IMG/VR virus record: IMGVR_UViG_3300035670_000627
Span: 1 to 37,932 of that record
Reading direction: 5' to 3' (one strand)
Length of the DNA: 37,932 nucleotides
DNA from: a virus
Part shown: one piece after another, positions 1,089 to 36,704 of the stretch
How the letters are laid out: every line of letters begins with the position of its first letter
How positions within the stretch are numbered: the stretch's first letter is position 1
Program-made: the position numbers and the translations under genes
Notes under the pieces: model-generated
Seen by the model: the letters and a program-made list of their open reading frames with translations, nothing else
What the model was told of the DNA's origin: nothing
The model's database searches: none

Positions 1089-1095
1089 ATAAATA
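1089..1095 (-). promoter_or_regulatory. TATTTAT leader element, 1063 gene
   Basis: The coding strand reads TTAATATTTATAATCAAACC, ending with a 25-nt spacer to the ATG at 1063. It lies in the short gap after the tape measure stop at 1103. It is one of thirteen leader copies in the window. Confidence 0.6.
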
Positions 1096-1102
1096 TTAAC
1101 CT

Positions 1103-3535
1103 TTATTGGAGCTTAGCACCAGCTGTCATTCTACCTATCTCAAGGCGGTTCATATCTACAACCATCTTTATTTGTGATATAGCTGCTGGGATTTGGTTTA
1201 GTCCTTCTCTAAGGCTCTTTAATTCAGCTAACATTGGTGATAAGTCAACTTGTGCTTGTGGTGTTTGAGTTGCTCTCATATCACCACGTTCTGCTACATT
1301 TAATGGTTTGATTCTAGCTCCTTCAGGTAATTGGACAATTTCAGGACCAACTTCACCTACTCTAACTGCTCCACCTTCTGTTACTTCACCACCAAATTGA
1401 GCACCTGGGGCATCTTCAGAAGCATTAGAAATTAAAGCTGCAATACCTCCTATGGCCGCTCCTGCTACTGCTAAACCTAATAAAGCTTTAAATGGGTTAG
1501 CTACAGCGTAGGCTGCGGCATTAGCAATAGCTGTACTTTTTGAAGCCGCAGCCATTGCTCTAAGTCCTCGAGCAGCTTGAGCAAAACCAGAAACCATTTT
1601 AGCTATTTGTACTGTAGCAATTATCCCAAGAATAGCACCTAATGCTACTGTGTTCTCTAGAATGGTACCCATTATGTCCATAAAGGTTCCTAAAGGACCT
1701 TGTACAAGATCACCTACAAGACTTTGCATTTTTTCAACAGCCATGTTGAATTTTTCTTGAGTAGATAAAGATTCAAGTCTATTTCTTAATTCTTCATCTG
1801 TTACATCCTTAATTATTTCACCTTGCTCATTTAAGTATTCTTGTTTTAACAACATTTCACTTAACTGACCAACATTCATTCCTAATGACTCTGCTAAGGC
1901 TTGTTGTTGGATAACATTCATGTTTTGGAAATCACTGAATGTGCCCATTTCCTTATTGAGTTCATCCATCAAACCATTGATGTCATTGGTAAGAGCAAAA
2001 TAACGAGCTCTTTCTAGGTTAATTTCTCTACCAATTAATAATTCAGCTTCTAATTCTTTAGAAATTGAATCTTCAAAATTAAGTAAAGAACTAGCTACTT
2101 GGTTTACTCCTTCTAAAGTAGTACCTAAAGCGGTAGCTTTAGCTACAGCCTCAGTTAATGCTGTTGTTGAGCCTCTGAATTGAGCTAAAGCAAAAGCACC
2201 TTGTTTACCTACTTCTTCTAATACTTTTCTTTGGTTAATTTGTACTCCAAATTGTTTACTTACTTCTTGAGTAGTTCTTAATTGAGAAGTATATTGTTCT
2301 TCAAAGTCTTGACCTGTAGCTTCAGCAAAGAATTGTAATTTAGCTGCTTCAGCAGCCTGAATACCTACTAGTTTAGTTAATTGAGTTTGAATAACTAAGT
2401 TATTAGCATCAATTTTACCTTGAACTCCTAATAGTTCATTAAGATTAGCTTGAGCTTTTACTAAATCACTAGTATTAATTAGGTTAGAATTAGTAGCTAA
2501 TGCAGCTTGTGACAATTCCATTCTAAGAGCTATAGCTCCTGAACGGGATAACATTAGATTTTTCTGAAATCCAACTAATTCTTGGTCAATTTTGCCAGCT
2601 TGATTAGCTAAACCTGCAAATATAGTTAGAGGGTCTAGTAAAGCTTTACCAAATCCTTTAGCTAATTCATTAATTCCTATCCAAGCTGCTTTAAACTTAT
2701 TACCAAAAGTTAGAGCTTTATCACGAGCACTTTGCTCTAATTTTTCTCTATCTTGAATTAATTTATTTTGCTGTTCTAATGTAAGATTTTGATCTTCTAA
2801 TTGATCATTGATTGCTTTTAATTGCTTCTGATATTCATCAGTATTTCTTACAAGATCAAGTTGTTCAGCTGCATATTCTCTCATTGAGTCTACAGCATCA
2901 TCAACTTTAAGCATGTTGCCTATTTTACTTAGGCCTGGAATATTACCAATACCTTTTAAGATACCTCCAGTTAGACCAGTAGTAGCATTAATAGCTTTTA
3001 AGTCTAGTAATTGTCTCTTTAATGCTTGGTTAGTTTTTTCAACTTCACCTGTATTAGCTCTTAAAGCACCTTCTAAGTTAAGTAAAGCTGCTCCTTCTTC
3101 ATCTGTAAGACCAACACTAGTTTTTTTAGCTTGTAATTCTTGAAGTTGTTGTTGAAGAAGAATTCTGTTTCTATCAGCTTTCTTTTGAAGACTTTGTAAT
3201 TCTTTTTCTGAAGTTTTAACTATATTCTCTTGATTAGATAATAGCTGAACTGAAATGTTATAAAATTCTTTAAAGCCTTTTCTAGTATTACTTAATACAG
3301 TGTCAGCTTTAGTAACTTCATTTATAATTCTTCCCCAAGAACCAAAAGTACTATTTAAATCATTGTTTATATCTCTTAAAGTTGATTGAACATTCTTTAA
3401 GAGTTGATTATAGGCCTCAACTTTAGCATTTGTTTGATTTAAAGCATCTAATTGACCTTGATAACCTCTACCTTCAGGTCCTAATGCCTTGAGAAGTTCT
3501 TTAATCTCTTGTGCTATTTTTGTAGTATCAGCCAT
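1103..3535 (-). CDS. Tail tape measure protein
   Basis: The product is an 810-residue protein expected to set tail length and fill the tube lumen. The N-terminal half is long heptad-rich helix (residues about 1-300). A hydrophobic Ala/Gly-rich segment with two probable membrane-spanning helices lies at about 629-645 and 684-702. Near the C-terminus is VGEVGPEIVQLPEGA (726-740), a motif shared by many tape measure proteins of long-tailed phages. T4's counterpart gp29 is 590 aa, so this tail may be longer than T4's if length scales as usual. It follows two overlapping frames that look like tail assembly genes, the canonical arrangement. A hairpin and the TATTTAT element precede the ATG. The coiled-coil, hydrophobic-patch and C-terminal-motif combination makes this call fairly safe. 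Confidence 0.88.
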   Translation of the reverse strand: MADTTKIAQEIKELLKALGPEGRGYQGQLDALNQTNAKVEAYNQLLKNVQSTLRDINNDLNSTFGSWGRIINEVTKADTVLSNTRKGFKEFYNISVQLLSNQENIVKTSEKELQSLQKKADRNRILLQQQLQELQAKKTSVGLTDEEGAALLNLEGALRANTGEVEKTNQALKRQLLDLKAINATTGLTGGILKGIGNIPGLSKIGNMLKVDDAVDSMREYAAEQLDLVRNTDEYQKQLKAINDQLEDQNLTLEQQNKLIQDREKLEQSARDKALTFGNKFKAAWIGINELAKGFGKALLDPLTIFAGLANQAGKIDQELVGFQKNLMLSRSGAIALRMELSQAALATNSNLINTSDLVKAQANLNELLGVQGKIDANNLVIQTQLTKLVGIQAAEAAKLQFFAEATGQDFEEQYTSQLRTTQEVSKQFGVQINQRKVLEEVGKQGAFALAQFRGSTTALTEAVAKATALGTTLEGVNQVASSLLNFEDSISKELEAELLIGREINLERARYFALTNDINGLMDELNKEMGTFSDFQNMNVIQQQALAESLGMNVGQLSEMLLKQEYLNEQGEIIKDVTDEELRNRLESLSTQEKFNMAVEKMQSLVGDLVQGPLGTFMDIMGTILENTVALGAILGIIATVQIAKMVSGFAQAARGLRAMAAASKSTAIANAAAYAVANPFKALLGLAVAGAAIGGIAALISNASEDAPGAQFGGEVTEGGAVRVGEVGPEIVQLPEGARIKPLNVAERGDMRATQTPQAQVDLSPMLAELKSLREGLNQIPAAISQIKMVVDMNRLEIGRMTAGAKLQ

Positions 3536-3553
3536 TAATCTAGGTTATATGTA

Positions 3554-3560
3554 ATAAATA
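3554..3560 (-). promoter_or_regulatory. TATTTAT leader element, tape measure gene
   Basis: The coding strand reads CCATATTTATTACATATAAC, with 18 nt between the core and the ATG at 3535. It follows directly after a strong inverted repeat at 3566-3595. Confidence 0.6.
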
Positions 3561-3565
3561 TGGAA

Positions 3566-3595
3566 AGTCCCAAAGTTTGTTAGTACTTTGGGACT
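3566..3595 (-). terminator. Hairpin before tape measure gene (possible weak terminator)
   Basis: Perfect 11-bp arms, AGTCCCAAAGT (3566-3576) and ACTTTGGGACT (3585-3595), flank an 8-nt loop. The arm and loop overlap the stop codon of the preceding frame (3580-3582). The downstream tract is only TTTCC, so termination would be inefficient. It could instead protect or process the mRNA. Confidence 0.5.
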
Positions 3596-3954
3596 CTTTG
3601 TTCCTTACTATTATATTGTTTACTTACTTTAGCAAACTCAGGGGCGTTTATTGTACCATCTTCATTTATGACATTGGTAGTGTTTCCTGATTTGGTTTGT
3701 TGTTTTTGAGCTTCTGCTTGTTTAGTGTAATGGTCTTGCAGTTTATTAAAAGTAAACTTTCTTAACCATACAGGCATATTATAGACTGTAGGATAATCAT
3801 AACCACCATTACCATGAAATATTATTTCATGTATTTCACTAAATAAAGCTGCTCTGAAATTAGAAACGTTCTGCAACGTCAGGCCAAAAAAAGTCAAGTC
3901 CAATCGGAATTGTGCGAAATCGACCGTCCTCCCCCTCATAGGACATATCCACAT
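3580..3954 (-). CDS. Second frame of gp26-like gene; likely expressed by frameshift
   Basis: This 124-codon frame overlaps the end of the gp26-like gene by 95 nt and is displaced +1 (equivalently -2) from it. Its nominal ATG at 3954, and another at 3939, lie inside the upstream gene and lack a Shine-Dalgarno sequence. The first 23 codons mirror coding sequence already used by the other frame. The distinctive part begins after the T7 run and includes NMPVWLRKFTFNKL and a Gln/Lys-rich tail. Position directly before the tape measure matches the C-terminal frame of tail assembly chaperone pairs (lambda G/GT type). If a slip occurs at the T run, 101 residues would be added to the gp26-like protein. 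An independent small gene such as a gp51 equivalent is the alternative. Confidence 0.6.
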   Translation of the reverse strand: MWICPMRGRTVDFAQFRLDLTFFGLTLQNVSNFRAALFSEIHEIIFHGNGGYDYPTVYNMPVWLRKFTFNKLQDHYTKQAEAQKQQTKSGNTTNVINEDGTINAPEFAKVSKQYNSKEQRVPKY

Positions 3955-4597
3955 CTGGCATAGTATTTTTATAGTGTTCTCTTAATGCTCTTGAATCTGA
4001 TGCTAGGAGGTAATTGTCTACAAAGTTAACAATAGTACTCATGTCACGGTTACCCCCTACTGAGGTAATAATAAAACGGAATCGAGTAGTTAATTCCCCT
4101 GCGTTAGGATTTACTTTTCTTAGGCCCTCTAATTCCTTATCAATCATTTTTTCATCCTTACCTGTTAAAAGCTTAAAGGTAATTTCAGTGCCTGTAGTAG
4201 GCATAGTATAAGAGAATTCATTTTTTCCTTCAGTTAGACCAGTAAAGTCATTATTGATGTTTTCTAACTTAGATAGGTCAATAGTTTGTGTCTTACTTCC
4301 GTATGATACGGTGTAATTTGAACCATAACCTAAGATACGAGCAGCCACTAACAAAGCATTCTTATCGCCTATTAACAAGTCTTCTAAGTTAAATTTAGGA
4401 CTGATAATAAGCGATTCGAGTAATTTGTCTAAAACTATACCTTGCTGGATATAGTTAGCGTTAGCTAAGATATCTTCTTCCTTAGCTGTCATATATTTCA
4501 TTTCTACTTTACCTTCTTTAAGAGGATGTTCGGCTGGGTAAAAGAAGCCTTTAGAAGGTAGTTCAACTGTTTCAGTTGGGAATTTAAATTCTGGCAT
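3860..4597 (-). CDS. T4 gp26-like baseplate hub / tail assembly protein
   Basis: The product is 245 residues, close to T4 gp26 (208 aa), a hub assembly component. Features typical of the T4_baseplate family are an N-terminal FPTETVELPSKGFFYP segment, then EMKYMTAKEEDIL (33-44), then a helical body ending in LRKVNPNAGELTTRFRFIITSVGG. It has no membrane segment. The gene lies between the tube and tape measure genes, and the next reading frame overlaps its last 95 nt. Together these suggest a tail assembly chaperone-like role with a frameshifted long form, rather than, or as well as, a simple structural part. The family call rests on the MTAKEEDIL region and gene order. Its exact role here is inference. 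Confidence 0.72.
   Translation of the reverse strand: MPEFKFPTETVELPSKGFFYPAEHPLKEGKVEMKYMTAKEEDILANANYIQQGIVLDKLLESLIISPKFNLEDLLIGDKNALLVAARILGYGSNYTVSYGSKTQTIDLSKLENINNDFTGLTEGKNEFSYTMPTTGTEITFKLLTGKDEKMIDKELEGLRKVNPNAGELTTRFRFIITSVGGNRDMSTIVNFVDNYLLASDSRALREHYKNTMPDVDMSYEGEDGRFRTIPIGLDFFWPDVAERF
3886..3892 (-). other. Candidate programmed frameshift site (T7 run)
   Basis: The coding strand reads GAC TTT TTT TGG in the gp26-like frame. The run of seven T permits re-pairing of the Phe tRNA either +1 or -2, both of which enter the frame that continues to 3580. The zero-frame stop lies 8 codons further on. Predicted products are 245 aa (unshifted) and about 338-339 aa (shifted). Confidence 0.55.
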
Positions 4598-4624
4598 AAA
4601 TTATTGGTTATAACTTGTATGTTT

Positions 4625-4631
4625 ATAAATA
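4625..4631 (-). promoter_or_regulatory. TATTTAT leader element, gp26-like gene
   Basis: The coding strand reads ATAGTATTTATAAACATACA, with a 27-nt spacer to the ATG at 4597. This copy has G instead of A before the core. Confidence 0.55.
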
Positions 4632-4660
4632 CTATAAAGGGAGGTTCTTTAACAGGTTAA

Positions 4661-4972: not shown

Positions 4973-5030
4973 AGTTTTGTTTAGTATTAGATGTCAAAGA
5001 ACCTATCCCTTATAGATTGAGTTATAAGAT

Positions 5031-5058: not shown

Positions 5059-5083
5059 AATTTCAATTTTGGTAAAAAACTTC

Positions 5084-5572
5084 TTAGAAGTTTAGTACAC
5101 AGTAATCCATACCCATAGTAACAGTGAGGTTTACAGCACCCGCATCTGTGTCCCAGTTGTATTCGCCAAAGTTAGCAGACTTAATGAATGCGCCTTTAAT
5201 TACCCATTCTGAAACGATATCACCAACAGGGCCTAATACTTGGATAGTTGGATCCTTCTTATAGAAGTCGGAGTAACCATCTCTACCTGTTACTGATTCG
5301 TGGTGTAAACGAAGCCATTCAATTACTGCTTGAGCACCTGAAGGTGTGATTGGATCGTATAGTGTCATAGTCAAATCATTCCAAACAGTTCTACCTTTTA
5401 CTTTACGGTAGATGTTGATATGGTTTAATCTGATTTCACCTTGATCGAAGCCTACCGCTGATAAACCCTTAATCATGAAGGCTGGGATGCCTGTGATTGA
5501 GAAGATAAATCTATTCTGAACTTTAGGTTCGAATGGGGTGAAGAAAATATCGTTTATACCTAATACTGCCAT
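5084..5572 (-). CDS. 19: Tail tube protein (T4 gp19-like)
   Basis: The product is the major tail tube subunit, which polymerises inside the contractile sheath. At 162 residues it matches T4 gp19 (163 aa). The segments FSITGIPAFMIKGLSAVGF, the KVKGRTVWNDLTMTLYDPI strand region and the C-terminal AGAVNLTVTMGMDYCVLNF follow the family pattern. The first sets up the inner beta-barrel and the last is the conserved closing strand. It lies immediately downstream of the sheath gene, as in T4, and is followed by a strong terminator. It has its own TATTTAT leader element, so it can probably be transcribed separately from the sheath. The start is the first ATG, preceded by A-rich AACACAGCAAA. Confidence 0.93.
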   Translation of the reverse strand: MAVLGINDIFFTPFEPKVQNRFIFSITGIPAFMIKGLSAVGFDQGEIRLNHINIYRKVKGRTVWNDLTMTLYDPITPSGAQAVIEWLRLHHESVTGRDGYSDFYKKDPTIQVLGPVGDIVSEWVIKGAFIKSANFGEYNWDTDAGAVNLTVTMGMDYCVLNF

Positions 5573-5595: not shown

Positions 5596-5602
5596 ATAAA
5601 TA
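5596..5602 (-). promoter_or_regulatory. TATTTAT leader element, tail tube gene
   Basis: The coding strand reads CAAATATTTATAATAAAATA, with a 23-nt spacer to the ATG at 5572. This is a full-consensus copy in the 46-nt gap after the sheath stop. Confidence 0.65.
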
Positions 5603-5618: not shown

Positions 5619-7370
5619 TTACGCTGGGAAAGTTGCACCAGTTGGTAAGATGCTGAAGTCGAGATAGATGAATTCGGCTGTCTTAGTAGGCTGAATGAAG
5701 ATCTGTCCAATTAGCTGGTTTCTATCAATTACGTCTGCAGTATTGTTGGAATCATCCATGATTACTCTAAACGCGTATAAACCTTGTCTCTGTTGTACTG
5801 ACTCTAGATATGGGTTTACAATTGATAAGAAGTTGTTTCTAGTTGTTAAAGTATTTTGTTCAAACACTAAGTTGTTAGCAACTTGAGAAATAAATCCTTT
5901 AAGTTGAATTAACAATCTACGAACATTTACTCTATCAAGAGCAGATGACTTAGTTTGTAATGTTTTCTGACCGTATACTACAACTCCAGTTCCTGGGAAT
6001 GTAGCGATTGGGTTTACTTTACCTGTGTATAAGGTATCACGAGTTGCTTGAGAGAGTTTTTGTTCGGCTCTAATTACTTGGCCTAAACCACCTCTGTTAA
6101 TACCTGCTGGAGCGAACCATGGATCAGCTGCTCTATCATTAAAGGCATAAACACCTGGGATCAAGGCTGAAGCTGGTACCCAAACATTCTTACCTGTTTC
6201 TGGGTCAAGTACTTGACACCATGGCCAGTAAGTTGCAGCGTATGAAGTGTCTTCAGAGGCAGCTTGTGTTATTACAGCTCCTACACTTGAACCATACCCA
6301 ACCATGTCTGGAATGTAGATATTATCTCCTCTATTTTGAGTATTTGTAATGATACTTGTGATAGGTGAAGTATGAGTAGCAAAAGCATTTATTAGACCTG
6401 GGGTTACTAATAAGTTAAATCTGTAGTCATCTTGGTTAGATAACAAGTTGATCATGCTAGTGTAGTCACTACCACTTAAACCTTGAGTATCTGTATTACT
6501 AATTGCCTCATAGTAAGCATTACCTCCACTAGCTACAGGATCACCTGTTGCGGCTGTAAATGAACCACTAGCATTCACTGGAAGTGAACTTGTATAAGCT
6601 GATTTAGCTACACCATTATTATTAAAGTAATTTGGAGTAGGAGTTTCAACTGATTTTACTCTAATGTAATTTGATCTGTTAGCGTAAGAACCTGAAGTGG
6701 TAAGCTGGATAGTTGATGGGTTGTAGTTTTGAGTTTGATCACCAATCACAGCGGCGATAAAGTTTGGTTGAGTTGGGTCTAATGATAAGTTAGTCCAAGT
6801 CTCTAAAACAATCTGGCTGTTTGTAGTGTCATTACCTTGTCTTACTAATAGAGTAAATGTACCTGAAGAGGTATTAGCATTTTGAATTGACCATCTAATA
6901 TTATCTGAGGTACCATTAACTAAAGCTCCTGCTGAATCAAGTGAGCTTGAGCTGTTCATGATAACACCCTCAGAAATGGTTTCTAAGATAAAGGCTTCAT
7001 CACCATCAGCGTTAAGAATTGATACACCAGCACCAGCACCTCCAGTTACAGAAGCTGTAGCTGTAGTAGCAGGAGCCCAAGTTGCAGAAGCACTTACTAC
7101 TCTAGCAACTAGAAGTGAAGTACCACCATTTATGAAGTAATTGTAAGCTGTTAGTGCGGTTAAGAATGAGTATGAATCACCACCACTAATGAAAGCACCA
7201 CCAAACTTATTGATATAATCTGAATAAGTGGTTACAATAGTTGGGATTTCAACTGGTCCTTTTGTTGTTGGGCCGATGATAGCTGCTCCAACTGTAGCTG
7301 GAGTTTGAGTTAAAAATGACTGATCGTTTTCTCTTGCTAAAACACCAGGTGATACTAAAGTTTCTGCCAT
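5619..7370 (-). CDS. 18: Contractile tail sheath protein (T4 gp18-like)
   Basis: The product is a 583-residue sheath subunit; T4 gp18 has 659. The N-terminus (ETLVSPGVLARENDQSF, then ATVGAAIIGPTTKGPVEIPT) is the conserved opening of phage sheath proteins. The C-terminal third carries the conserved core: NVWVPASALIPGVYAFND, the KLSQATRDTLYTGKVNPIATF region and GVVVYGQKTLQ, then RLLIQLKGFISQVANNLVFEQN and the closing IYLDFSILPTGATFPA. The middle (about 90-330) is Ser/Thr/Asn-rich and is probably the variable surface domain. It is the first gene after the glycosylation operon, preceded by a hairpin and a full TATTTAT element, and pairs with the tube gene just downstream. Confidence 0.93.
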   Translation of the reverse strand: MAETLVSPGVLARENDQSFLTQTPATVGAAIIGPTTKGPVEIPTIVTTYSDYINKFGGAFISGGDSYSFLTALTAYNYFINGGTSLLVARVVSASATWAPATTATASVTGGAGAGVSILNADGDEAFILETISEGVIMNSSSSLDSAGALVNGTSDNIRWSIQNANTSSGTFTLLVRQGNDTTNSQIVLETWTNLSLDPTQPNFIAAVIGDQTQNYNPSTIQLTTSGSYANRSNYIRVKSVETPTPNYFNNNGVAKSAYTSSLPVNASGSFTAATGDPVASGGNAYYEAISNTDTQGLSGSDYTSMINLLSNQDDYRFNLLVTPGLINAFATHTSPITSIITNTQNRGDNIYIPDMVGYGSSVGAVITQAASEDTSYAATYWPWCQVLDPETGKNVWVPASALIPGVYAFNDRAADPWFAPAGINRGGLGQVIRAEQKLSQATRDTLYTGKVNPIATFPGTGVVVYGQKTLQTKSSALDRVNVRRLLIQLKGFISQVANNLVFEQNTLTTRNNFLSIVNPYLESVQQRQGLYAFRVIMDDSNNTADVIDRNQLIGQIFIQPTKTAEFIYLDFSILPTGATFPA

Positions 7371-7394: not shown

Positions 7395-7401
7395 ATAAAT
7401 A
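7395..7401 (-). promoter_or_regulatory. TATTTAT leader element, sheath gene
   Basis: The coding strand reads TTGATATTTATAATAAAATA, with a 24-nt spacer to the ATG at 7370. It overlaps the right arm of the hairpin at 7399-7432. Confidence 0.65.
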
Positions 7402-7464: not shown

Positions 7465-8664
7465 TTAATAAATATTAAGTACTTTTTCTAGAGATTTTAT
7501 CACCATCTCTGGAGTGATTGATTTAGTACATTCAAAATGTCTTGGTGTATCTTTATGCTCGGGGCACCATTCCCAATCTCCTGGGTTGAGCCATTCACGG
7601 TTAAAACATCCTGAACAAAGTCCTGTCGGAGTATAAATACGTTCACAGTCTTCAAACTCACTATATGGTTCTGAAAATCCTGAAATGAGAATTGTTTTTT
7701 GTCCAACAGCCCATGATACCCAACTTAATCCGCTACCTACACCTATAAAAGCTTCAGCGTGAGATATATCACTCATTCGATCTTCTAAAGGTAATTTACC
7801 AGTTTTATTAATAACATTTTTAAGTGTACCACCTAGTTTTGAATCATGCCATCCGTCTCCTAATGGTTCACTTGTTATCATAAGGGTTTTATATCCTTTT
7901 TCTTTTAACCAATCAATAACACGTTGCCATCCACCTGGGTAATTCCAATATTTGGCATGAGCTGAAGCGTGAGGGGCTATTACAACATATTTTTCTTTTA
8001 CAGGACGAGTTTTTTTATTAAAGAATACTTTAGGTTTAGTTTCAATATATTCTAATCCTAAAATATCAGATGAGGCTTTACCTAAAGGAATATTTTTAAA
8101 TTCAGTAACATTCCTATCTAGATTAACTTTATGATTTTCATCATAAAACCACCCAACATTATACATAGCATATAAATCATTTACTTGGGTTCCAGGTTTT
8201 ACAAATTTAATTTCTGGGTAAGTTTTAATAAACCACTCATTATGAAATGTAGAGGCTACCATTTCACAATTATACTTTTTCCTAAATTCATCTATAAAAG
8301 GAAACCAAGCTAAAGTATCACCTACAGCTGTAGAGTCCATATGAATATAAACTTTTTTACCTACAACATCATACTTATGCTCAAAAACTAAATCATTAGT
8401 TTCTAAATCAAACACTTGAATTAACCAATCTGTAAAATACTGGCGATTGGTTCTAGTCCACATATTATTTGAAATGATGGATTCATGAACTATTTCATTT
8501 GTTTTTTGGTCTGTAAATAAAACTTTATATTGTCTTTCTTCAGGACCTAATACTTCTAAAAAAGCACCTTCAACAAAATGGAACATAAATCTATTTTGTG
8601 GTTCCTGAAAGGGTAAATATAATGGTTTTACATTATCATATATTTTTTTCAAAACTTTTTTCAT
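7465..8664 (-). CDS. Protein O-heptosyltransferase, Aah/TibC (BAHT) family
   Basis: This 399-residue enzyme is in the GT9-like bacterial autotransporter heptosyltransferase family. In bacteria these transfer ADP-heptose to serines on the strand-loop-strand repeats of adhesins. The whole length fits: an N-terminal beta domain (about 15-100), AVGDTLAWFPF (113-123), KYWNYPGGW (238-246), GVGSGLSWVSWA (308-319), ISGFSEP (327-333), then the family's metal finger with cysteines 350, 353, 367 and 379 and the closing FECTKSITPEMV. It overlaps the upstream GT4 gene by 4 nt (ATGA) and ends the operon. A giant Ser-rich fibre lies upstream, a plausible acceptor. The actual sugar donor cannot be read from the sequence. 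LPS modification is the main alternative. Confidence 0.88.
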   Translation of the reverse strand: MKKVLKKIYDNVKPLYLPFQEPQNRFMFHFVEGAFLEVLGPEERQYKVLFTDQKTNEIVHESIISNNMWTRTNRQYFTDWLIQVFDLETNDLVFEHKYDVVGKKVYIHMDSTAVGDTLAWFPFIDEFRKKYNCEMVASTFHNEWFIKTYPEIKFVKPGTQVNDLYAMYNVGWFYDENHKVNLDRNVTEFKNIPLGKASSDILGLEYIETKPKVFFNKKTRPVKEKYVVIAPHASAHAKYWNYPGGWQRVIDWLKEKGYKTLMITSEPLGDGWHDSKLGGTLKNVINKTGKLPLEDRMSDISHAEAFIGVGSGLSWVSWAVGQKTILISGFSEPYSEFEDCERIYTPTGLCSGCFNREWLNPGDWEWCPEHKDTPRHFECTKSITPEMVIKSLEKVLNIY

Positions 8665-9608
8665 ATTATTTCTTGATAAAGTTTAACTAATTCAATAGCA
8701 CGATTATACCAATCTAATTCTTTAGCTGTTTCTAAAGCCATTTCTCTATAAAGTTTATAATCCTTTATAATACTTTGTAATCCAGTATTCATCTCAAATA
8801 TATCTCGAGGTGCTCTCCAAGCACCATGAAATACAGTATTATACTCCCAGTCAGCGATTATAGGTAAACCAGCAGCAGCTGCTTCAACCATTGTTAAATT
8901 AGGATGACCTGCTTCTAACATTGTAGGGTGAATAAAAATATCATGTTGGTGATATAATTTTAATAATTCACTATTAGGAGTATCATAAACAATTTTTAAC
9001 TTAGAATAAGTTAATGTCCAAGGATTTTCATTAAAGAAATGTCTATTATTATAAGGACCGGCTACTGTAATTTCTAAATTATTTAAGGCTGCTAATCCAA
9101 TACCATAACTAAATCCTTTTCTATCAAATCCTGAATTGCCTGCTAGTCCATTATTGGCTAACATTAATAGTTTAGGCTGTTTAGGGGTTGGTTTATCTAT
9201 AGGATAAAATTCCTGATTATTAACTCCATGAGCAAAATATTGTACTTTAGGATGATCAAAATAGTCTACTAAGTATCTTGCTGGGACTAATGATAGAATA
9301 GATCCTTCTATAGCTTTAAGATTTTGTTTGTATACATGGCTATCTTTACCATGATGATAAGCATGATGGTCATGAAGTTGAAATACATAAGGTATTCCTC
9401 TTTCTTGAAGCATTAAAGCTAAATTACCAACATGACAGTGAATAATGTCAAAATCATTAGGGTTAATTTCAGTTGCAAATTTGATTTCTGACTCATGTCC
9501 TTGTTTAAGAAAATTTTGATGATATTCCCATACGATTTTTTCAATCGCACCCCAATCTTTAGGTGGAACGTCTATTCCACAGGCAGGATGTACTTGGCAA
9601 ATTCTCAT
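8661..9608 (-). CDS. GT4-family glycosyltransferase
   Basis: This 315-residue GT-B enzyme is probably retaining. The N-terminal Rossmann half starts MRICQVHPACGIDVPPKDWG, where GT4 proteins have a glycine-rich acceptor loop, and includes FDIIHCHVGN (53-62). The C-terminal donor half has DRKGF (162-166), ITVAGP (180-185) and the acidic pair E232 and E242 in LEAGHPNLTMVEAAAAGLPI. The two glutamates are two residues further apart than the classic E-x7-E. It overlaps genes on both sides by 4 nt, so translation is coupled within the four-gene operon. It likely adds a sugar to the glycan built by this module. Donor and acceptor are unknown. Confidence 0.82.
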   Translation of the reverse strand: MRICQVHPACGIDVPPKDWGAIEKIVWEYHQNFLKQGHESEIKFATEINPNDFDIIHCHVGNLALMLQERGIPYVFQLHDHHAYHHGKDSHVYKQNLKAIEGSILSLVPARYLVDYFDHPKVQYFAHGVNNQEFYPIDKPTPKQPKLLMLANNGLAGNSGFDRKGFSYGIGLAALNNLEITVAGPYNNRHFFNENPWTLTYSKLKIVYDTPNSELLKLYHQHDIFIHPTMLEAGHPNLTMVEAAAAGLPIIADWEYNTVFHGAWRAPRDIFEMNTGLQSIIKDYKLYREMALETAKELDWYNRAIELVKLYQEII

Positions 9609-10195
9609 AGATTTTTTTTAGCGTATATCATCCCTAGATTAGTGTTTTTATGGATGTGTTCAAAATTTATATTATATCCGTTTTGACTAAGTTTTTCTAA
9701 TATTTGAAGAATTTGATATCCATTATTATAAATGTCATGTACTTCTATAGCATACTGTTTAACTCGGGTTAAGATATCATCAGGCATGTTCAATAACAAG
9801 GGGTATTCCCAAAACTCAATATCAATTTTAGCAAAATCAACTGTGTCTAAATTAAACATACTGAATATAGTTTGGAAATTGAAGTGTTCAAATTCAAACC
9901 TATCACTGATATAACCTTTGATTAAGGAGGCATTTGAGTAATTTTGTAGATTTAATTTTAAAAGTTCAAATATAGATGGATCACATTCAAAAGAATAAAC
10001 ATGTTGTGCTCCTTTATCCAAAGCAAACTTACTAAATATACCTACATTAGCACCACAATCTAAAACTATATCTCCTTCCTTAATATCAAGACCATATCTA
10101 GTATACTCTTGATCTTCCCAAATTTCTTTTTTAAGACCTAATATCCAGTTAGGATCTTGATCTTCAAAGTAATAAAAATCATCAACTAAAATCAT
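9605..10195 (-). CDS. FkbM-family SAM-dependent methyltransferase
   Basis: This is a 196-residue Rossmann-fold methyltransferase. SAM motif I is VLDCGANVGIFSKFA (44-58), the acidic residue binding the ribose hydroxyls is E70 in YSFECDP, and the later segment VDFAKIDIEFWEYPLL matches the FkbM pattern of a strand followed by an acidic residue and E-x-x-E/W. Members O-methylate sugars in glycans, glycolipids and antibiotics. Located between two glycosyltransferase genes with 4-nt overlaps on each side, it most likely methylates a sugar in the chain they make. A DNA-methylating role is unlikely, as there is no DPPY-type motif. Confidence 0.82.
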   Translation of the reverse strand: MILVDDFYYFEDQDPNWILGLKKEIWEDQEYTRYGLDIKEGDIVLDCGANVGIFSKFALDKGAQHVYSFECDPSIFELLKLNLQNYSNASLIKGYISDRFEFEHFNFQTIFSMFNLDTVDFAKIDIEFWEYPLLLNMPDDILTRVKQYAIEVHDIYNNGYQILQILEKLSQNGYNINFEHIHKNTNLGMIYAKKNL

Positions 10196-13156: not shown

Positions 13157-13531
13157 CTACATTTCTATATTCCATGAAGAAGAAGGTAAGCCAAAAAGAG
13201 GAGTTAGGTTAAGTTTAATATACTCAAGAACTGTCTCAATTGTATTATCATAAGAACTAGTAGTCATAAAAGATGACTTTTGTGAGTCATAAAAATTATC
13301 CCAAGTTGTAGAGTTAAGAACAAAACTTATTCTATCTATATATTGTTGTTCACTTGTTCCATATTCAACCCAAACAATACTACTTACAGATACAGTGTGA
13401 GCTTCTTCTTCTGGGGAAGTAGGAGCATTATCATTAAATGATGTGACTTGAGGAGTAATGGTTAAAATAGAAGATGCTTGTGTTTGAGCATTATACACAA
13501 CAGCTTGATTTGATACAAGTTTATGAGACAT
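13157..13531 (-). CDS. Hypothetical protein (124 aa) in fibre module
   Basis: This 124-residue protein has a Ser/Thr-rich N-terminal part followed by an acidic patch (TSPEEEAHTVSVSSIVWVEYG) and a mixed alpha/beta C-terminus with several aromatic residues (FYDSQKSSFMTTSSYDN, LTPLFGLPSSSW). I do not recognise the family. It lies two genes downstream of the giant fibre and has its own full TATTTAT element 14 nt before the start. A fibre accessory, cap or assembly role is possible by position only. Confidence 0.65.
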   Translation of the reverse strand: MSHKLVSNQAVVYNAQTQASSILTITPQVTSFNDNAPTSPEEEAHTVSVSSIVWVEYGTSEQQYIDRISFVLNSTTWDNFYDSQKSSFMTTSSYDNTIETVLEYIKLNLTPLFGLPSSSWNIEM

Positions 13532-13533: not shown

Positions 13534-13692
13534 TTATTTTTTATTATAAATATTAAAACGTTTTTTTACTTCCTCATTACTTAGAACTTCTCCTTTAGAA
13601 ATTATTTCTTGAAATTCTTCTAAGGTTATCTCATAAATAGTGCCACCACTATCTTCTATTTGTTTTTTTAATTTAGGAGTTAAAGGGATCAT
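13534..13692 (-). CDS. Very small protein (52 aa) overlapping fibre stop
   Basis: An ATG at 13692 overlaps the fibre stop as ATGA (4 nt), and the frame runs 52 codons to TAA at 13534, 2 nt before the next start. The protein begins MIPLTPKLKKQIEDSGG and ends KKRFNIYNKK; it is Lys/Glu-rich and probably helical in its second half. Overlap-coupled start, codon use like the neighbours, and a frame filling the whole gap make it likely to be real. The last codons coincide with the TATTTAT element of the next gene. Its function is unknown; it may be a fibre-coupled regulator or chaperone. Confidence 0.65.
   Translation of the reverse strand: MIPLTPKLKKQIEDSGGTIYEITLEEFQEIISKGEVLSNEEVKKRFNIYNKK
13546..13552 (-). 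promoter_or_regulatory. TATTTAT leader element, 13531 gene
   Basis: The coding strand reads TTTTAATATTTATAATAAAA, with a 14-nt spacer to the ATG at 13531. It is embedded in the last codons (Phe-Asn-Ile-Tyr-Asn) of the 52-aa frame. Confidence 0.6.
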
Positions 13693-20614: not shown

Positions 20615-20621
20615 ATAAATA
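20615..20621 (-). promoter_or_regulatory. TATTTAT leader element, giant fibre gene
   Basis: The coding strand reads TTTTAATATTTATCATAAAC, with a 29-nt spacer to the ATG at 20585, the longest of the set. The leader also contains an in-frame-less ATG-TAA minimal frame just before the real start. Confidence 0.6.
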
Positions 20622-23587: not shown

Positions 23588-23594
23588 ATAAATA
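23588..23594 (-). promoter_or_regulatory. TATTTAT leader element, neck operon
   Basis: The coding strand reads TTCAATATTTATAACAAAAA, with an 11-nt spacer to the ATG at 23576. It sits just after the PhoH stop at 23606. Confidence 0.62.
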
Positions 23595-25020: not shown

Positions 25021-25278
25021 TTAGGTAATTATAATTTTAGAGCCGTCTTCTTGTAATAAAGTAAAATAATCTAAAGCTCCATTATTTATGTAAGATTCTT
25101 CTTGAGCTAAATATCTTTCTTCAGGTCCTTTATTCTGGTAGTTTATCCAGTTTTGTCTTGCAATATCTAAATCATAGACATATTGTTGGTAAGCTACTAC
25201 TTGCTCATGCAAAGGCAACTTACTTATACGTTCAATTTTAATGAACTGAGGCCACAATATTTCTTCAAAGATATTCAT
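25021..25278 (-). CDS. Small hypothetical protein (85 aa) after capsid gene
   Basis: This 85-residue, mostly helical and acidic-aromatic protein (VVAYQQYVYDLDIARQNWINYQ) ends FTLLQEDGSKIIIT. Regular aromatic spacing resembles tail-fibre assembly helper segments, but no family is recognised. It is the first gene after the capsid terminator, its TATTTAT element lies only 6 nt before the ATG, and it is 2 nt from the fibre-like gene. A role linked to that fibre is plausible. Confidence 0.65.
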   Translation of the reverse strand: MNIFEEILWPQFIKIERISKLPLHEQVVAYQQYVYDLDIARQNWINYQNKGPEERYLAQEESYINNGALDYFTLLQEDGSKIIIT

Positions 25279-25284: not shown

Positions 25285-25291
25285 ATAAATA
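25285..25291 (-). promoter_or_regulatory. TATTTAT leader element, 25278 gene
   Basis: The coding strand reads ATTATATTTATAAACACATG, with only 6 nt from core to ATG. It follows the capsid terminator by about 10 nt, the arrangement expected of a promoter restarting transcription. Confidence 0.65.
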
Positions 25292-29910: not shown

Positions 29911-30168
29911 TTATTCTTCTCCTGTTAATAATTGTTCAATGTCGTCTAAGTAACTTAAAATTAAGTCTGTTGGTTTAACTACAGAATATGATTCTGGTTT
30001 GTCAGTGTAATAAGCTATAGTTTCGTCTTTAGCATTATCTATAGCTGGGTATAGGGAATTTAAGCGCTGGGTGATTTTATCAAAAGCAGCAATGCGTTCC
30101 TCTTGATACACTTTTGCATCTTGAGGTTGAGTGAATGCTCTTTCTTTAACTAATTTATACTTATACAT
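29911..30168 (-). CDS. Small hypothetical head-cluster protein (85 aa)
   Basis: This is an 85-residue helical, charged protein (KVYQEERIAAFDKITQRLNSLYPAID, then VVKPTDLILSYLDDIEQLLTGEE). The ATG lies just 4 nt after the TATTTAT core, the shortest spacer in the window, raising the possibility of a leaderless or alternatively started mRNA. It belongs to the block between portal and protease. No family is recognised. Confidence 0.65.
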   Translation of the reverse strand: MYKYKLVKERAFTQPQDAKVYQEERIAAFDKITQRLNSLYPAIDNAKDETIAYYTDKPESYSVVKPTDLILSYLDDIEQLLTGEE

Positions 30169-30172: not shown

Positions 30173-30179
30173 ATAAATA
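30173..30179 (-). promoter_or_regulatory. TATTTAT leader element, 30168 gene
   Basis: The coding strand reads AAGTAATATTTATAAGCATG. The TAA stop of the preceding gene is part of the element, and the next ATG is 4 nt beyond the core. Confidence 0.6.
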
Positions 30180-30755
30180 TTACTTACCCCATAAATATTT
30201 AGTGTCTATAGCCTTAGATTGGGCAGCTAATTTCTTACTATCAACAGGTTTAAAACCAAAGTTTTTAGTATAGTAATTATTTTTTACACCAGTGGCTCCT
30301 GCTTTAGGTCCTTTACCTAATGAAGCACCAGGATTAGCTTCACCTAATTTTTTCATTTTAGGGGCTAATTTATAAGCATATTTTGCTCCATATTGAGGAC
30401 CTTGACCTACTTGAAATCCTCCTGCTCCAGGTCCACCTCCTACACCAGACATTTCAAATAAACCTTTGATAGCATTATATTCAGCTGGATAGGTTTTTCT
30501 AAGGTGAGTTCTAATTCTATTTCTTAATTCTCTATATTCTTTAATATAGGCTAAGAACTCAGGATCTTTTCTGATATCATCAGTGGTAGCCATACCTTCT
30601 AAAGTCTCTAAAGCTCTGTTTAGATCCTTAACTAACATTTCAAAATCAGGGATGTAGATAACGTCTGATTCAAACTCGGCTTCTCCACCAGGAGTAGGTA
30701 CAAGTTTAAATTTTCTACCGCGTAAAGCTTCCTTGATTTTATTTGTTAGTTCCAT
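30180..30755 (-). CDS. Hypothetical head-cluster protein (191 aa)
   Basis: This 191-residue protein has a compact N-terminal half with a charged helix (MLVKDLNRALETLEGMATTDD, then AYIKEYRELRNRIRTHLRKTYP). The second half is low-complexity and rich in Gly, Ala and Lys (SGVGGGPGAGGFQVGQGPQY), basic overall. A basic Gly-rich tail could contact DNA or the prohead interior. It overlaps the 288-aa gene by 17 nt. I do not recognise a family; an internal head or core protein is plausible by position. Confidence 0.68.
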   Translation of the reverse strand: MELTNKIKEALRGRKFKLVPTPGGEAEFESDVIYIPDFEMLVKDLNRALETLEGMATTDDIRKDPEFLAYIKEYRELRNRIRTHLRKTYPAEYNAIKGLFEMSGVGGGPGAGGFQVGQGPQYGAKYAYKLAPKMKKLGEANPGASLGKGPKAGATGVKNNYYTKNFGFKPVDSKKLAAQSKAIDTKYLWGK

Positions 30756-31605
30756 TGGCTATTTTAAGTTCTTCTACTAGTTCACAATATTGGAGTAGGT
30801 CAACTATATTCTCGTTTCTGATAGGTTGGGTTTTTTCAACCTCAACGATTAGAGGTAATACCTCAGTTAGTTTGATTTGAACAGCCTTGTCTGTTATGGT
30901 TTTGCTAATGGTAGCTAACTCTTCTTTGAGTTGCTGGATTCTATTATTATAGAATGTTCTTAGTTTAGGGGTTGAATCAACTGAAGTGATAAATTCTTTA
31001 AGTACTTCTTTTTGTGACTCATATAGACCTGAATACTTACCATTGAATTTCTCTAATAAGATTTTGTAAGTTAACATTCTTACATCCTTATCATAAGTTT
31101 GAAATTCTTGAAGAACTTCATCTTTTGCTTTTTCTTCTTTAACTACTGGGGTAGATAAATGCTCTAATAGGGTAAACTTATTTTCAATTAACTGAGTAGG
31201 GTTAGTAGCATCAGTTGTATGTTCAGCTTCAATTAAAGTATATAAAGCAGCAAATGGCTTATAATTGTTTAATTTGGTCTTAAAGAATTCATCTAGATCG
31301 TAATGTTCCTTAATCTCATTGATTAGGTTATACTTTTGTCTACGTAAAGAAGATCTATTTAGTTTTTTAGATGATTCTAAGATAGTTTGAATTAGAATGT
31401 TTGCTTTAGCCTCATTTACTTTATTGGTCTTGCTTAGAGTTTCATATAGTTTTAACTCTTTACCTAATTCACTTTTTACAAAATACTTCTTGATAATGTT
31501 TAATGCAGGTGATTGACCTCCATTAAGTGTATCTGATGTTACTTGTCTAACAAGCAATTCAAAAAGAATACCAGTATTTTTATATTTTGAATGCTTAATA
31601 TTCAT
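30739..31605 (-). CDS. Hypothetical head-cluster protein (288 aa)
   Basis: This 288-residue, almost wholly helical protein starts MNIKHSKYKNTGILFELLVR and has many Lys, Glu and Leu. Long amphipathic helices run through the middle (LRRQKYNLINEIKEHYDLDEF, KILLEKFNGKYSGLYESQKE) and end in LPLIVEVEKTQPIRNENI. The opening H-S-K-Y-x-N-T-G-I-L-F-E-L-L-V-R-Q is distinctive and should find homologues. It follows the portal gene and carries a TATTTAT element. It may be a prohead core or scaffolding-like protein; this is position only. Confidence 0.7.
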   Translation of the reverse strand: MNIKHSKYKNTGILFELLVRQVTSDTLNGGQSPALNIIKKYFVKSELGKELKLYETLSKTNKVNEAKANILIQTILESSKKLNRSSLRRQKYNLINEIKEHYDLDEFFKTKLNNYKPFAALYTLIEAEHTTDATNPTQLIENKFTLLEHLSTPVVKEEKAKDEVLQEFQTYDKDVRMLTYKILLEKFNGKYSGLYESQKEVLKEFITSVDSTPKLRTFYNNRIQQLKEELATISKTITDKAVQIKLTEVLPLIVEVEKTQPIRNENIVDLLQYCELVEELKIANGTNK

Positions 31606-31622: not shown

Positions 31623-31629
31623 ATAAATA
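31623..31629 (-). promoter_or_regulatory. TATTTAT leader element, 31605 gene
   Basis: The coding strand reads TATATATTTATAATAAATCC, with a 17-nt spacer to the ATG at 31605, in the 35-nt gap after the portal stop. Confidence 0.6.
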
Positions 31630-31640: not shown

Positions 31641-33521
31641 TTACTCAGTCAAGTTAGACTCATCTAATAATGATTCTGCCGACTTATTTTTAGCGTAAAC
31701 TATCTCTTTACTTAGCGATTCTAGTAAAGCTTTATTTTTATTTTTTGTGTTTTCTAAAGCTAAAGGTGAACCTCCTTTGTAATTAGGAGTACCATATCCT
31801 TCTTGATCGTCTTTTTTATTGTCTTCACGACCAAGTCTGTCTCTACCAAATGCGTTGTATTGGGTATTGATATTAGAAGCCTTTTCTTCAGGTCTACCTA
31901 ATTTTTTATCCTCACCATATCCATCAGGTACTTCACCATTTTCATATCTTCCTCTACCATATAAAGAAGCTAGGTCATGTGGTGTGCCATATGAACGACC
32001 TGTTTCAACTGGGTCATTACCTTCTTCAGTAATTTGTTGGATTCTAAAGTTACGTTTAGCATCCTCAACTGCTAGATCTCTATACTCATCGTATTGGTCA
32101 GCACTGAATTGGAATACATTATCATAGATCCAATCTGAAGGGATAATTTTAGTGTCTAGCATTTCTTTAGCTAGGGCTACTTTTTCCTTAAGTAAGGCAA
32201 TCTTTTCTTGTTCAGCAATGATTGAAGGAGTAGTTAAGCTAAGCTCAAAGTTTGTTAAACTTTCTCCATCATATCCTTGAGTGTAAAGGTGTACTAAAGC
32301 AATTTTATATAGCTCAGATAATACAATACGTTGAATGCGATCAATTGTACGAGCGAATCTAATATCTTCGGCGGCTAGAGTTGCTTTACCTGTTAAATCC
32401 TTTTCATAACCCATAAAGGCTTTAGGTACCTTAAGGGCAGCAAATAACTTATCTCTTAAGTAAGTTACGTCTTGAATACCATCATAGTCTAGACCTTTTG
32501 TAGTGTCTATTTTAGTGGCTGAATCATTTCCTCTTACTGGGATGTAGAAATCCTCAAGTAAGTTTTGCATGTTATACTTTAAGTTATACTCACCTGTTTT
32601 TTCATCCATTAATGGAGTACGTTTCATAGTTGAGATAGTTTTCTGCATAAATGCCTCTACCTCTTGAGGTGGAATATTACCTACGTTTACATAGAAAATA
32701 CGTTTTTCTGGGGCACGAGCAATTCTATGAATAAGCATCGCATCCTCCATTAACACATATTGTTTGAATAGACGACGTGCTGGTTCAAGATATGAACGGC
32801 CATAAGGAAGATAGTTAACGTCTGTTAATAAACGGAAGTGAGCTATCTCATAGTTGTCAAATGCAATTTGGTTAGCATCTGGTTTAGTGTTTGGGGTTGA
32901 GTAGTAACCTGAACCTCCAGTGTAGTATCCATCAGGTGAGTAAAGGAATTGTACTTTAGATGGATTAGCCATATCAAAATTTTCACGTCTTTGAATATGG
33001 TAAGCAGTATAAGGTACTACATTATAAACACCAAATTTTTCTGCGATTTCTAACTTGATAAAGAAATCACCGTACTTACACATTTGGCGAATCCAAGACC
33101 AAAGATTGAATTCAATGTTAAGTACATCGTAAAATAAGTTATAAAGAATTTTTTGGATGTCATCGTCGCTACTTCTAATTTGAAGTACTTCACCCATATC
33201 ATTCTTTAGAGTACATTCGTCAGCTATAATATCTAAGGCAGATGCTACAATTGCGTCTGTATCCATGGTATCATAGTCATTATATAAATAAGTTCTAAGA
33301 TACTGATATTGTAGGTTAAATTGTTGTCCTAAAAGAGAGGTAGCAGCTGGGTTAGTATATATTTTACTAAATCTGTCTACTAGAGAATTAGTTTGGAATT
33401 CACCACTAGTTTGAATATGATCAGTATCAACTACTTTTAGTTGACTTCCTCCTTGGTTCCTGATGACTACATCAGTTGAAAAGAGTCTTCTTAATCTTGA
33501 AAAAATACTAGTATCAGCCAT
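31641..33521 (-). CDS. 20: Portal vertex protein (T4 gp20-like)
   Basis: The product is a 626-residue portal subunit (T4 gp20 has 524) that forms the dodecameric DNA gate. Family hallmarks include the region with IHRIARAPEKRIFYVNVGNI, PPQEVEAFMQKT, TGEYNLKYNMQNLLEDFYIPV and the downstream DYDGIQDVTYLRDKLFAALKVPKAF, the central clip and stem core. The extra length is mostly in a polar C-terminal tail (about 500-626). It follows the terminase gene by 23 nt, and precedes the head core and protease block. Confidence 0.94.
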   Translation of the reverse strand: MADTSIFSRLRRLFSTDVVIRNQGGSQLKVVDTDHIQTSGEFQTNSLVDRFSKIYTNPAATSLLGQQFNLQYQYLRTYLYNDYDTMDTDAIVASALDIIADECTLKNDMGEVLQIRSSDDDIQKILYNLFYDVLNIEFNLWSWIRQMCKYGDFFIKLEIAEKFGVYNVVPYTAYHIQRRENFDMANPSKVQFLYSPDGYYTGGSGYYSTPNTKPDANQIAFDNYEIAHFRLLTDVNYLPYGRSYLEPARRLFKQYVLMEDAMLIHRIARAPEKRIFYVNVGNIPPQEVEAFMQKTISTMKRTPLMDEKTGEYNLKYNMQNLLEDFYIPVRGNDSATKIDTTKGLDYDGIQDVTYLRDKLFAALKVPKAFMGYEKDLTGKATLAAEDIRFARTIDRIQRIVLSELYKIALVHLYTQGYDGESLTNFELSLTTPSIIAEQEKIALLKEKVALAKEMLDTKIIPSDWIYDNVFQFSADQYDEYRDLAVEDAKRNFRIQQITEEGNDPVETGRSYGTPHDLASLYGRGRYENGEVPDGYGEDKKLGRPEEKASNINTQYNAFGRDRLGREDNKKDDQEGYGTPNYKGGSPLALENTKNKNKALLESLSKEIVYAKNKSAESLLDESNLTE

Positions 33522-33537
33522 TGCTTAGTTTATTATC

Positions 33538-33544
33538 ATAAATA
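33538..33544 (-). promoter_or_regulatory. TATTTAT leader element, portal gene
   Basis: The coding strand reads TTTAATATTTATGATAATAA, with a 16-nt spacer to the ATG at 33521. The terminase stop codon TAA lies within the element. Confidence 0.6.
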
Positions 33545-35514: not shown

Positions 35515-35785
35515 TGTATTTACGTTTAAATAAGTCAGCTTTGGCTTGTAGATCTGCTAATTTGGTTTTGTCTTCTTGAATCTGAAGTTTGTAACCAACA
35601 GCTATACTATCTAGTTTAGCTATTTTTAGATGTGTAGAGTCAACTTGAGCTTGAAGCGAATCATTTGCTCGCTCAAGCTCGTTGATTTTGTCATTTAAGT
35701 CAGTACTGTGATCTAATCTTCTATAAACAGCGATTATAACAAGGATTAGAGCAACGTAACTTAAAATTCTAGTATATTTTTTCAT
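35441..35785 (-). CDS. Rz-like inner-membrane spanin candidate
   Basis: This is a 114-residue protein with one N-terminal transmembrane helix (about 7-21, ILSYVALILVIIAVY) and a long periplasmic coiled coil (about 30-100, for example NDKINELERANDSLQAQVDS). The C-terminal EEHNRISELTGDALVSEF is similar in style to Rz proteins. Inner spanins of Gram-negative phages have exactly this form and join the outer membrane partner during lysis. The overlap with the next gene in another frame supports the pairing. No holin or endolysin is recognised in the window. Confidence 0.65.
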   Translation of the reverse strand: MKKYTRILSYVALILVIIAVYRRLDHSTDLNDKINELERANDSLQAQVDSTHLKIAKLDSIAVGYKLQIQEDKTKLADLQAKADLFKRKYNEEHNRISELTGDALVSEFTNAFN

Positions 35786-35786
35786 A

Positions 35787-36674
35787 TTAATCCTCGTCGG
35801 TTGAAACTATATCAATATCAAGGTCTTGTTTCTTGATTTTCTTATTGATGAGAGCTTCACGGCTAGCTTTTAATTTTTTTCTAAGTTCAGTTTTAGCTCT
35901 TAGATCATTCATAAATTCAGCCTCTTCTGGGGTGTAGTTTTTAGTAGATCCTTTAGCTGCAATTTCTTTAGCTTGGGCTAATTTAGATTCTAGATCAGCA
36001 CTTAGGTCTTTAATTTGCATATCCATAGAGTCAAGATCTCTGATTCCTAATGCTCTTAAATCTTTAGCATTGAAAGATGCTTTAGGTTGAGCTATGTTAG
36101 CGGCTTTAAGGGCTCTTTTGATAAATGATTTGGTAGGGGTTTTACCTACAACCTTAACATCACCACCCATAGTGTAAGCTAGAGAATCATCTGGTTTCTT
36201 AGAACCTTTAGGACGGCCACGCATTCCTGGTTCTTTTGGTTCTTTAGGACCTGCTTCTCTTTTGCCACCACCAGCTACATCAATGAATGCTGCTAAATCT
36301 TTTTCTAGAACTTCTCTAGACTTAGGGTTATTAAAGGTAGCAATATCTTTACCTGTTACTTTAGCTAATTCTTTATAATCTACTTCACCCTTAGTTTTTA
36401 GTAGATCTAATGTGTTGTATAGAGCTGAACCTTCTCTGAATTTAGCTTGTGCTGCTGCAATTGCTTTTTTAGCATCAGCTCCTGCTTCTGGTTTAACCTT
36501 ATAGAAGGTCGCCATTTCGTCTAGTTGTTCCTCTCCTACTATTTTAACAATATCGTCTTTGTCTACTTTATCTCTAATAGCAGCAACTTGATTAGCTGGG
36601 ACTTCAAAAGTAGCCTCTGTTAGCTCGCTTACAATCATCTCGCGGATAGCGAGCTTCAATTCAGATAATTTCAT
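35787..36674 (-). CDS. AT-hook-like basic protein (295 aa)
   Basis: This is a 295-residue protein. The N-terminus MKLSELKLAIREMIVSELTE is a short amphipathic opening seen in several marine-phage structural or prohead proteins. A basic linker holds EPGMRGRPKGSKKPDDS, with an AT-hook-like RGRPKGSKK core (152-160), flanked by Lys/Glu-rich helices. A minor-groove DNA-binding function is suggested. It is upstream of the spanin pair and terminase with 1-nt spacing. It could act in packaging or be an internal head protein; there is no evidence for a small terminase fold. Confidence 0.65.
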   Translation of the reverse strand: MKLSELKLAIREMIVSELTEATFEVPANQVAAIRDKVDKDDIVKIVGEEQLDEMATFYKVKPEAGADAKKAIAAAQAKFREGSALYNTLDLLKTKGEVDYKELAKVTGKDIATFNNPKSREVLEKDLAAFIDVAGGGKREAGPKEPKEPGMRGRPKGSKKPDDSLAYTMGGDVKVVGKTPTKSFIKRALKAANIAQPKASFNAKDLRALGIRDLDSMDMQIKDLSADLESKLAQAKEIAAKGSTKNYTPEEAEFMNDLRAKTELRKKLKASREALINKKIKKQDLDIDIVSTDED

Positions 36675-36697
36675 CTCTAATAAATTATGGTTTTCTT

Positions 36698-36704
36698 ATA
36701 AATA
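36698..36704 (-). promoter_or_regulatory. TATTTAT leader element, 36674 gene
   Basis: The coding strand reads CTATAATATTTATAAGAAAA, with a 23-nt spacer to the ATG at 36674. The stop codon of the kinase gene forms part of the element. Confidence 0.6.

Follow-up and report, generated by a model that had tools for sequence, protein, structure and literature searches.

TATTTAT as the likely late-promoter core of T4-like phages related to Flavobacterium phage immuto

Introduction

The virus record IMGVR_UViG_3300035670_000627, a stretch of 37,932 bases that is probably a fragment and is referred to here as the window, encodes a T4-like head and tail module in which thirteen gene leaders carry the heptamer TATTTAT on the coding strand. 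The question raised by this locus is what the heptamer does. An earlier examination of the letters alone (the original prediction) had described it as inverted relative to the T4 late promoter and had offered three options, a lineage-specific late promoter, a promoter of leaderless transcripts or an RNA-level element. Our analysis indicates that TATTTAT, flanked as in (A)TATTTAT-AA-n-AAA, is most likely the late-promoter core in relatives of Flavobacterium phage immuto, a clade of T4-like myoviruses the hosts of which are probably Bacteroidota. We favour this reading because the element is strand-specific, seven bases long, located at the heads of late units, not accompanied by a -33 box, and found in place of the -33/-7 promoters of early genes. 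The location, strand, enrichment and spacing of the motif were computed from sequence alone.

TATTTAT in the window

Every real gene of the window lies on the minus strand, and family profiles identified genes for the portal, terminase, major head protein, head protease, tail sheath, tail tube, head-tail adaptor and hub. The nearest named relative is immuto, with a portal identity of 61.7%. All thirteen cores proposed originally are exact copies of TATTTAT on the minus (coding) strand, and the distance of 4-29 nucleotides (nt) between core and ATG was confirmed. The putative late-promoter cores and one adjacent hairpin are as follows (lengths of products in amino acids, aa).

1089..1095, minus strand: core before the 109-aa gene 734-1063; ATG at 25 nt
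3554..3560, minus strand: core before the 810-aa gene 1103-3535, probably the tape measure to judge from its position and length; ATG at 18 nt
3564..3597, minus strand: terminator-like hairpin immediately upstream of core 3554
4625..4631, minus strand: core before the baseplate-hub-like gene 3860-4597; ATG at 27 nt
5596..5602, minus strand: core before the tail tube gene 5084-5572; ATG at 23 nt
7395..7401, minus strand: core before the tail sheath gene 5619-7370; ATG at 24 nt
13546..13552, minus strand: core before gene 13157-13531; ATG at 14 nt
20615..20621, minus strand: core before the collagen-like repeat gene 13689-20585; ATG at 29 nt
23588..23594, minus strand: core before the head-tail adaptor gene 22377-23576; ATG at 11 nt
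25285..25291, minus strand: core before gene 25021-25278; ATG at 6 nt (short-spacer class)
30173..30179, minus strand: core before gene 29911-30168; ATG at 4 nt (predicted leaderless)
31623..31629, minus strand: core before gene 30739-31605; ATG at 17 nt
33538..33544, minus strand: core before the portal gene 31641-33521; ATG at 16 nt; kept in 76/77 relatives
36698..36704, minus strand: core before gene 35787-36674; ATG at 23 nt

Core 3554 directly follows a terminator-like hairpin, and just upstream of core 25285 there is a GC-rich inverted repeat and then a T-rich stretch. The statement that the cores usually stand within AATATTTATAAnAAA was somewhat generous, since this extended form is exact in 4/13 cases and present with at most one mismatch in 8/13.

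Counted over the whole window on both strands, TATTTAT occurs 26 times, versus a mean of 16.5 in shuffled sequence, a value that was reached in 3/100 shuffles; as this excess is only marginal, leader-based tests were used instead. There are 21 copies on the coding strand versus 5 on the other strand, and 14 of the 21 lie no more than 50 nt from a start codon, a zone that makes up 4.6% of the window. Comparison with shuffled sequence and motif discovery, as suggested with the original prediction, both confirmed the motif. The count in leaders is decisive: 13 of the 34 leaders of the window contain TATTTAT, whereas 2000 dinucleotide shuffles gave a mean of 0.99 and at most 5, and its reverse complement is found in one. 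Expectation maximisation (EM) without a seed, performed on those 20 leaders whose gap is 10 nt or more, converged on TATTTATaAnaa. Of 20 window leaders, twelve contain TATTTAT and none contains the T4-type TATAAATA. Scans for E. coli-type promoters and terminators gave results at overall chance level.

Two other features of the window may be mentioned. The gene at 13689-20585 encodes a collagen-like GSSG-repeat protein of 2298 aa, and long spurious open frames occur there on both strands. Within the tail module, at 7465-12834, there are four glycosyltransferase-like or methyltransferase-like genes with end-to-start overlaps and no TATTTAT in their leaders.

Conservation in related phages

Relatives were collected by terminase (n=80); a related terminase is encoded in at least 600 viral-contig stretches. 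For the terminase-portal junction, 78 of the 80 loci supplied the base of the count and one of them had no portal start within reach, leaving 77 relatives, including one (L033) with a different gene in the place of the portal. The exact heptamer is present at this junction in 76 of them, and in the last one with two mismatches, while the flanking bases are variable and the reverse complement occurs in 9/77. When leaders were sorted by gene family, all 47 members of the portal family had the motif. Leaders around the gene of a sigma-like protein, described below, contained TATTTAT in 99/264 cases versus 32 for the reverse complement in 80 further contigs. A short conserved gene (MGQLDKNVFG...) lies directly downstream of this sigma gene, for example at L201:3697-4041, and the motif was found in 72/72 copies examined.

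In a clade set of 388 leaders whose gap is 25 nt or more, taken from immuto and eight contigs, the top 7-mers were ATATTTA (160, with 22 expected and 17 for the reverse complement) and TATTTAT (132, with 19 expected and 40 for the reverse complement). Besides the window, four of the six relatives tested (immuto, G003, G006 and G008) yielded the motif in seedless EM, and the extended motif was biased to one strand in 13/13 records searched. Among 196 aligned sites, selected by the heptamer, the core was preceded by A (0.87) and followed by AAnAAA, and conservation was nil from -45 to -3.

Two controls were run through the same pipeline. The 70-120 kilobase (kb) region of T4 yielded ATAAATA and TATAAAT, i.e. 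the T4 late box, as the top k-mers. The host set consisted of 388 leaders of Flavobacteriales, which came from 34 loci among the 80 collected with phage GroEL (the other 46, mostly of other orders, were omitted); here the TAnnTTTG box of -7 was recovered and TATTTAT occurred 8 times versus 9.7 expected. Among 331 phage leaders the numbers were 132 for TATTTAT versus 2 for TAnnTTTG. Thus, the motif is neither an artefact of the pipeline nor a general trait of AT-rich leaders.

Late and early genes

In immuto, where the labels early and late were assigned by genome position and promoter type, TATTTAT is present in 17/28 leaders of the virion genes at 90-160 kb and in 2/27 leaders of the small genes clustered at 60-77.5 kb, whereas TATTTAG/TATCTTTAG has the opposite distribution, with 20/27 leaders at 60-77.5 kb versus 2/28 at 90-160 kb. 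At the early sites, considered here for TAnnTTTAG leaders only, the distance from TTG to the first T of TTT is exactly 27 nt in 20/20 cases in immuto and 17/17 in G002. TTG at this offset accompanies late sites in 2/18 cases in immuto, 2/28 in G002 and 0/11 in the window. The late sites are therefore a lone -7-like box without a -33 element, while the early genes have the -33/-7 promoter architecture defined for Bacteroidota in PMC6847099. The early promoters of immuto (60-77.5 kb) and G002 read TTG-N20-TAnnTTTAG, with A followed by G in the place of the host G at -5, and those of G002 contain an additional recurring GATGTTATATTTAG.

The motif precedes only 10 of 473 genes with an upstream gap below 10 nt, and 80 of 143 genes with a gap of 20-39 nt; it marks operon heads, not each gene.

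Spacing and predicted transcription start

Over 1228 distinct leaders, the core lies 0-3 nt from the ATG in 7 cases, 4 nt in 45, 5 nt in 31, 6 nt in 10 and 7-10 nt in 19, followed by a broad mode at 11-25 nt. The distribution thus has a sharp floor at 4 nt and two modes, and no such shape was seen for the reverse complement. The pattern persisted after grouping by gene family, with counts of 6 (0-3 nt), 20 (4 nt), 14 (5 nt), 6 (6 nt), 16 (7-10 nt) and 66 (13-16 nt).

Host promoters are reported to start transcription 4-5 nt past the -7 element (PMC6847099). Judging from the spacing of the motif, transcription probably starts about 4-5 nt after the last T of TATTTAT; in the register of the host promoters the first transcribed base would lie 3-4 nt beyond the core. 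With such a start, copies located 4-5 nt from the ATG would give leaderless transcripts, whose 5' end would coincide with the ATG or adjoin it, and copies located at 11-25 nt would give short leaders of about 8-20 nt. The original concern that spacers of 4 and 6 nt (cores 30173 and 25285) leave no room for a -10 box plus leader disappears if transcription begins at a distance of 4-5 nt past the core, the one reported for host promoters. A promoter of leaderless transcripts, one of the three original options, suits about one fifth of the copies (86 of 455 at 4-6 nt).

Candidate sigma factor

T4 gp55 matches the profile phrog_234, and this profile gave one weak match each in immuto (immuto26A_153), G001, G002 and G005, with E-values (expect values, E) from 3.8e-5 to 0.011. 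A sigma profile made of 30 orthologues matched 7 of 15 records (G001, G002, G004, G005, immuto, Microcystis phage Mel-JY01 and LR756508); among these 15 it had no match in T4, RM378, Mosig and Syn2, nor in the incomplete contigs G003 and G006-G008. The window, being a fragment, would not be expected to contain the gene. The protein is about 236 aa long and has an extra C-terminal helical domain, in contrast to the 185 aa of T4 gp55. In its AlphaFold model (mean predicted local distance difference test score of 70), residues 13-118 adopt the fold of sigma domain 2. In structural comparison, for which the chains were those ranked by Foldseek with E-values above 0.05, SigB came first (Z 10.4, 91 aligned residues, root-mean-square deviation 2.4 A), and nearly all of the 50 matches listed were sigma factors. 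A sequence search of PDB with the sigma alignment gave no match. The C-terminal domain folded alone had no clear fold match, several chains of sigma region 4 appearing at Z 4.7-5.3 amid unrelated ones. Judging from the modelled fold, we infer that immuto26A_153 and its orthologues are fold analogues of T4 gp55. Profiles of the T4 co-activators gp33 and gp45 (phrog_254 and phrog_223) matched 2 of 7 records, T4 and pelagiphage Mosig, and none of G001, G002, immuto, Mel-JY01 and RM378, although diverged homologues could escape them.

The proposed mechanism is that the host core RNA polymerase, together with the phage protein carrying sigma domain 2, would recognise and melt TATTTAT as a -7/-10 element, so that a contact at -33 would not be needed. 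Transcription would begin about 4-5 nt after the last T of the core, producing a leaderless and a short-leader class of mRNA. More tentatively, the late system might have parted from that of T4, with the C-terminal domain of the two-domain sigma-like protein, weakly similar to sigma region 4, replacing the combination of gp55, gp33 and clamp alone, and with starts at TATTTAT giving mRNAs that either are leaderless or have a leader of about 8-20 nt, lengths of 1-6 nt being avoided.

Comparison with known promoters

The element resembles the T4 late promoter in being a single -10-like AT box, without a -35 element, in front of late genes and associated with a phage protein with the sigma-domain-2 fold; absence of -35 conservation has been reported for T4 late promoters (PMC2988020, PMC7892883). 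It differs in its consensus, which is TATTTAT instead of TATAAATA, in that gp33 and gp45 were not detected in the TATTTAT phages, and in the predicted leaderless spacing class, which belongs to the TATTTAT phages, unlike the T4 late promoter. The T4 late box is reported to be conserved across T4 relatives (PMC2988020), a consensus of the TATAAATA type being given for KVP40, 44RR and S-PM2 and a variant for Aeh1 (PMC2988020, PMC2984593). Since the consensus differs and the co-activators were not found, the TATTTAT element probably works like the T4 late promoter but lies outside the TATAAATA class. The cyanophage late promoter NATAAATA is likewise a late-gene box of T4-like marine phages, but it has another sequence, and gp33 and gp45 are reported as kept there (PMC2984593).

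With the Bacteroidota primary promoter (-33 TTTG, -7 TAnnTTTG) the late box shares the A at -11, TTT at -8 to -6 and the predicted start distance of 4-5 nt; it differs in lacking the -33 element and the G at -5, and T at -12 is found in a minority of sites.

A nearly identical core was found in Rhodothermus phage RM378, a distant relative with genes on both strands, whose leader motif TATTTAAanaAA has the coding orientation but carries A, not T, after the core. TATTTAA in the coding orientation is present in 13/36 leaders of the plus strand and 19/46 of the minus strand. On both strands TATTTAAanaAA lies most often 6-11 nt before the start codon, which suggests near-leaderless transcripts. The sigma factor of RM378 is of another family (phrog_1740): it does not match the profile of immuto-type sigma, and comparison with A1 gave E 0.11. 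No description of the leader motif was found in passages of one paper that names RM378.

Microcystis phage Mel-JY01 (PP395634) was deposited with a cyanobacterium as host. It has 24 plus-strand TTG-N20-TAnnTTTG sites versus a random expectation of 3.4, as well as an immuto-type sigma gene and portal. The cyanobacterial host label looks doubtful in view of these Bacteroidota-type early promoters and the immuto-type sigma and portal.

Alternative explanations

Several observations weigh against TATTTAT as a late-promoter core. The major capsid gene of the window has no copy directly upstream, and in immuto the heptamer also occurs in 6/26 leaders at 0-60 kb. In the uncultured phage LR756508, no leader motif was found in 50 kb around the portal gene despite a sigma orthologue (the sigma-like gene at W05:C1:100324-100956), and EM on the leaders of Mel-JY01 locked on a CCCGG repeat instead of the motif. 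As for the protein, phrog_234 gave E of only 0.0026, 0.38 and 0.62 with three orthologues, hhalign against seven gp55 sequences gave E 4.7e-4 with a probability of just 33%, and the T4 gp55 structure was not among the 50 matches listed for the full model.

One alternative could be that the host primary sigma reads TATTTAT directly, as a degenerate -7 box (TAnnTTTG) without the -33 box, the timing being set otherwise. TATTTA does have TTT and the upstream A in common with the host box and is also found in early promoters of the same phages. We nevertheless consider this improbable: the host G at -5, reported to be nearly invariant (PMC6847099), is missing from TATTTAT sites, the late sites lose TTG at its fixed offset, Flavobacteriales leaders have no TATTTAT excess while just 2/331 phage leaders contain TAnnTTTG, and these phages encode a sigma-like protein of their own. 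Another explanation, less probable still, is an RNA-level element of the 5' leader, such as a translation enhancer or a processing site, the phylum being one that lacks Shine-Dalgarno sequences. The proximity to start codons and the sharp 4-5 nt spacing class would suit such a role, and mapped 5' ends in T4 may arise by processing according to PMC2988020. However, the motif is nearly missing inside operons (the 10/473 genes mentioned above), the major capsid gene does without a copy directly before it, one and the same core stands both at 4-5 nt and at 11-25 nt, the distances in between being less frequent, and at early genes a -33/-7 promoter occupies its place; together with the orientation of the RM378 motif on both strands, this disfavours the third of the original options.

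The chance that the element is a T4-type TATAAATA promoter of the other strand, or else a signal for replication or packaging with a strand bias, appears negligible. The original description was right as to the letters, the reverse complement of TATAAATA being TATTTATA, but a reversed T4 promoter is unsupported. The conservation and spacing of the motif follow the downstream start codon, in RM378 the coding orientation of TATTTAA is kept before genes of both strands, and in the window the genes on either side of the copies share one direction, so that transcription from a reversed promoter would be antisense. The relation between TATTTATA and TATAAATA appears to be a coincidence, the gene orientation being what counts. 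A lineage-specific late promoter, the remaining option of the original prediction, is strongly supported by the contrast between late and early genes, the sigma-like protein and the conservation of the motif.

Implications

At the level of titles and beginnings of abstracts, no description of a TATTTAT late promoter was found in the literature on Bacteroidetes phages, Far-T4, T4 and cyanophage late promoters, RM378 or Mel-JY01, a search that covered sources outside subscription papers, the RM378 genome paper being one of the latter. A late promoter with the TATTTAT core would mean that a widespread clade uses a box other than that of T4, together with a sigma-like protein that is almost unrecognisable. 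It would provide a promoter rule for the annotation of late genes in uncultured Bacteroidota phages and names a sigma candidate, immuto26A_153, in a cultured phage. It also makes two ideas testable, late transcription without detectable gp33 and gp45, and the use of leaderless mRNA by phages of a phylum without Shine-Dalgarno sites. If the tentative proposal of a late system parted from that of T4 is true, uncultured Bacteroidota phages would rely on leaderless mRNA for the translation of an entire class of virion genes.

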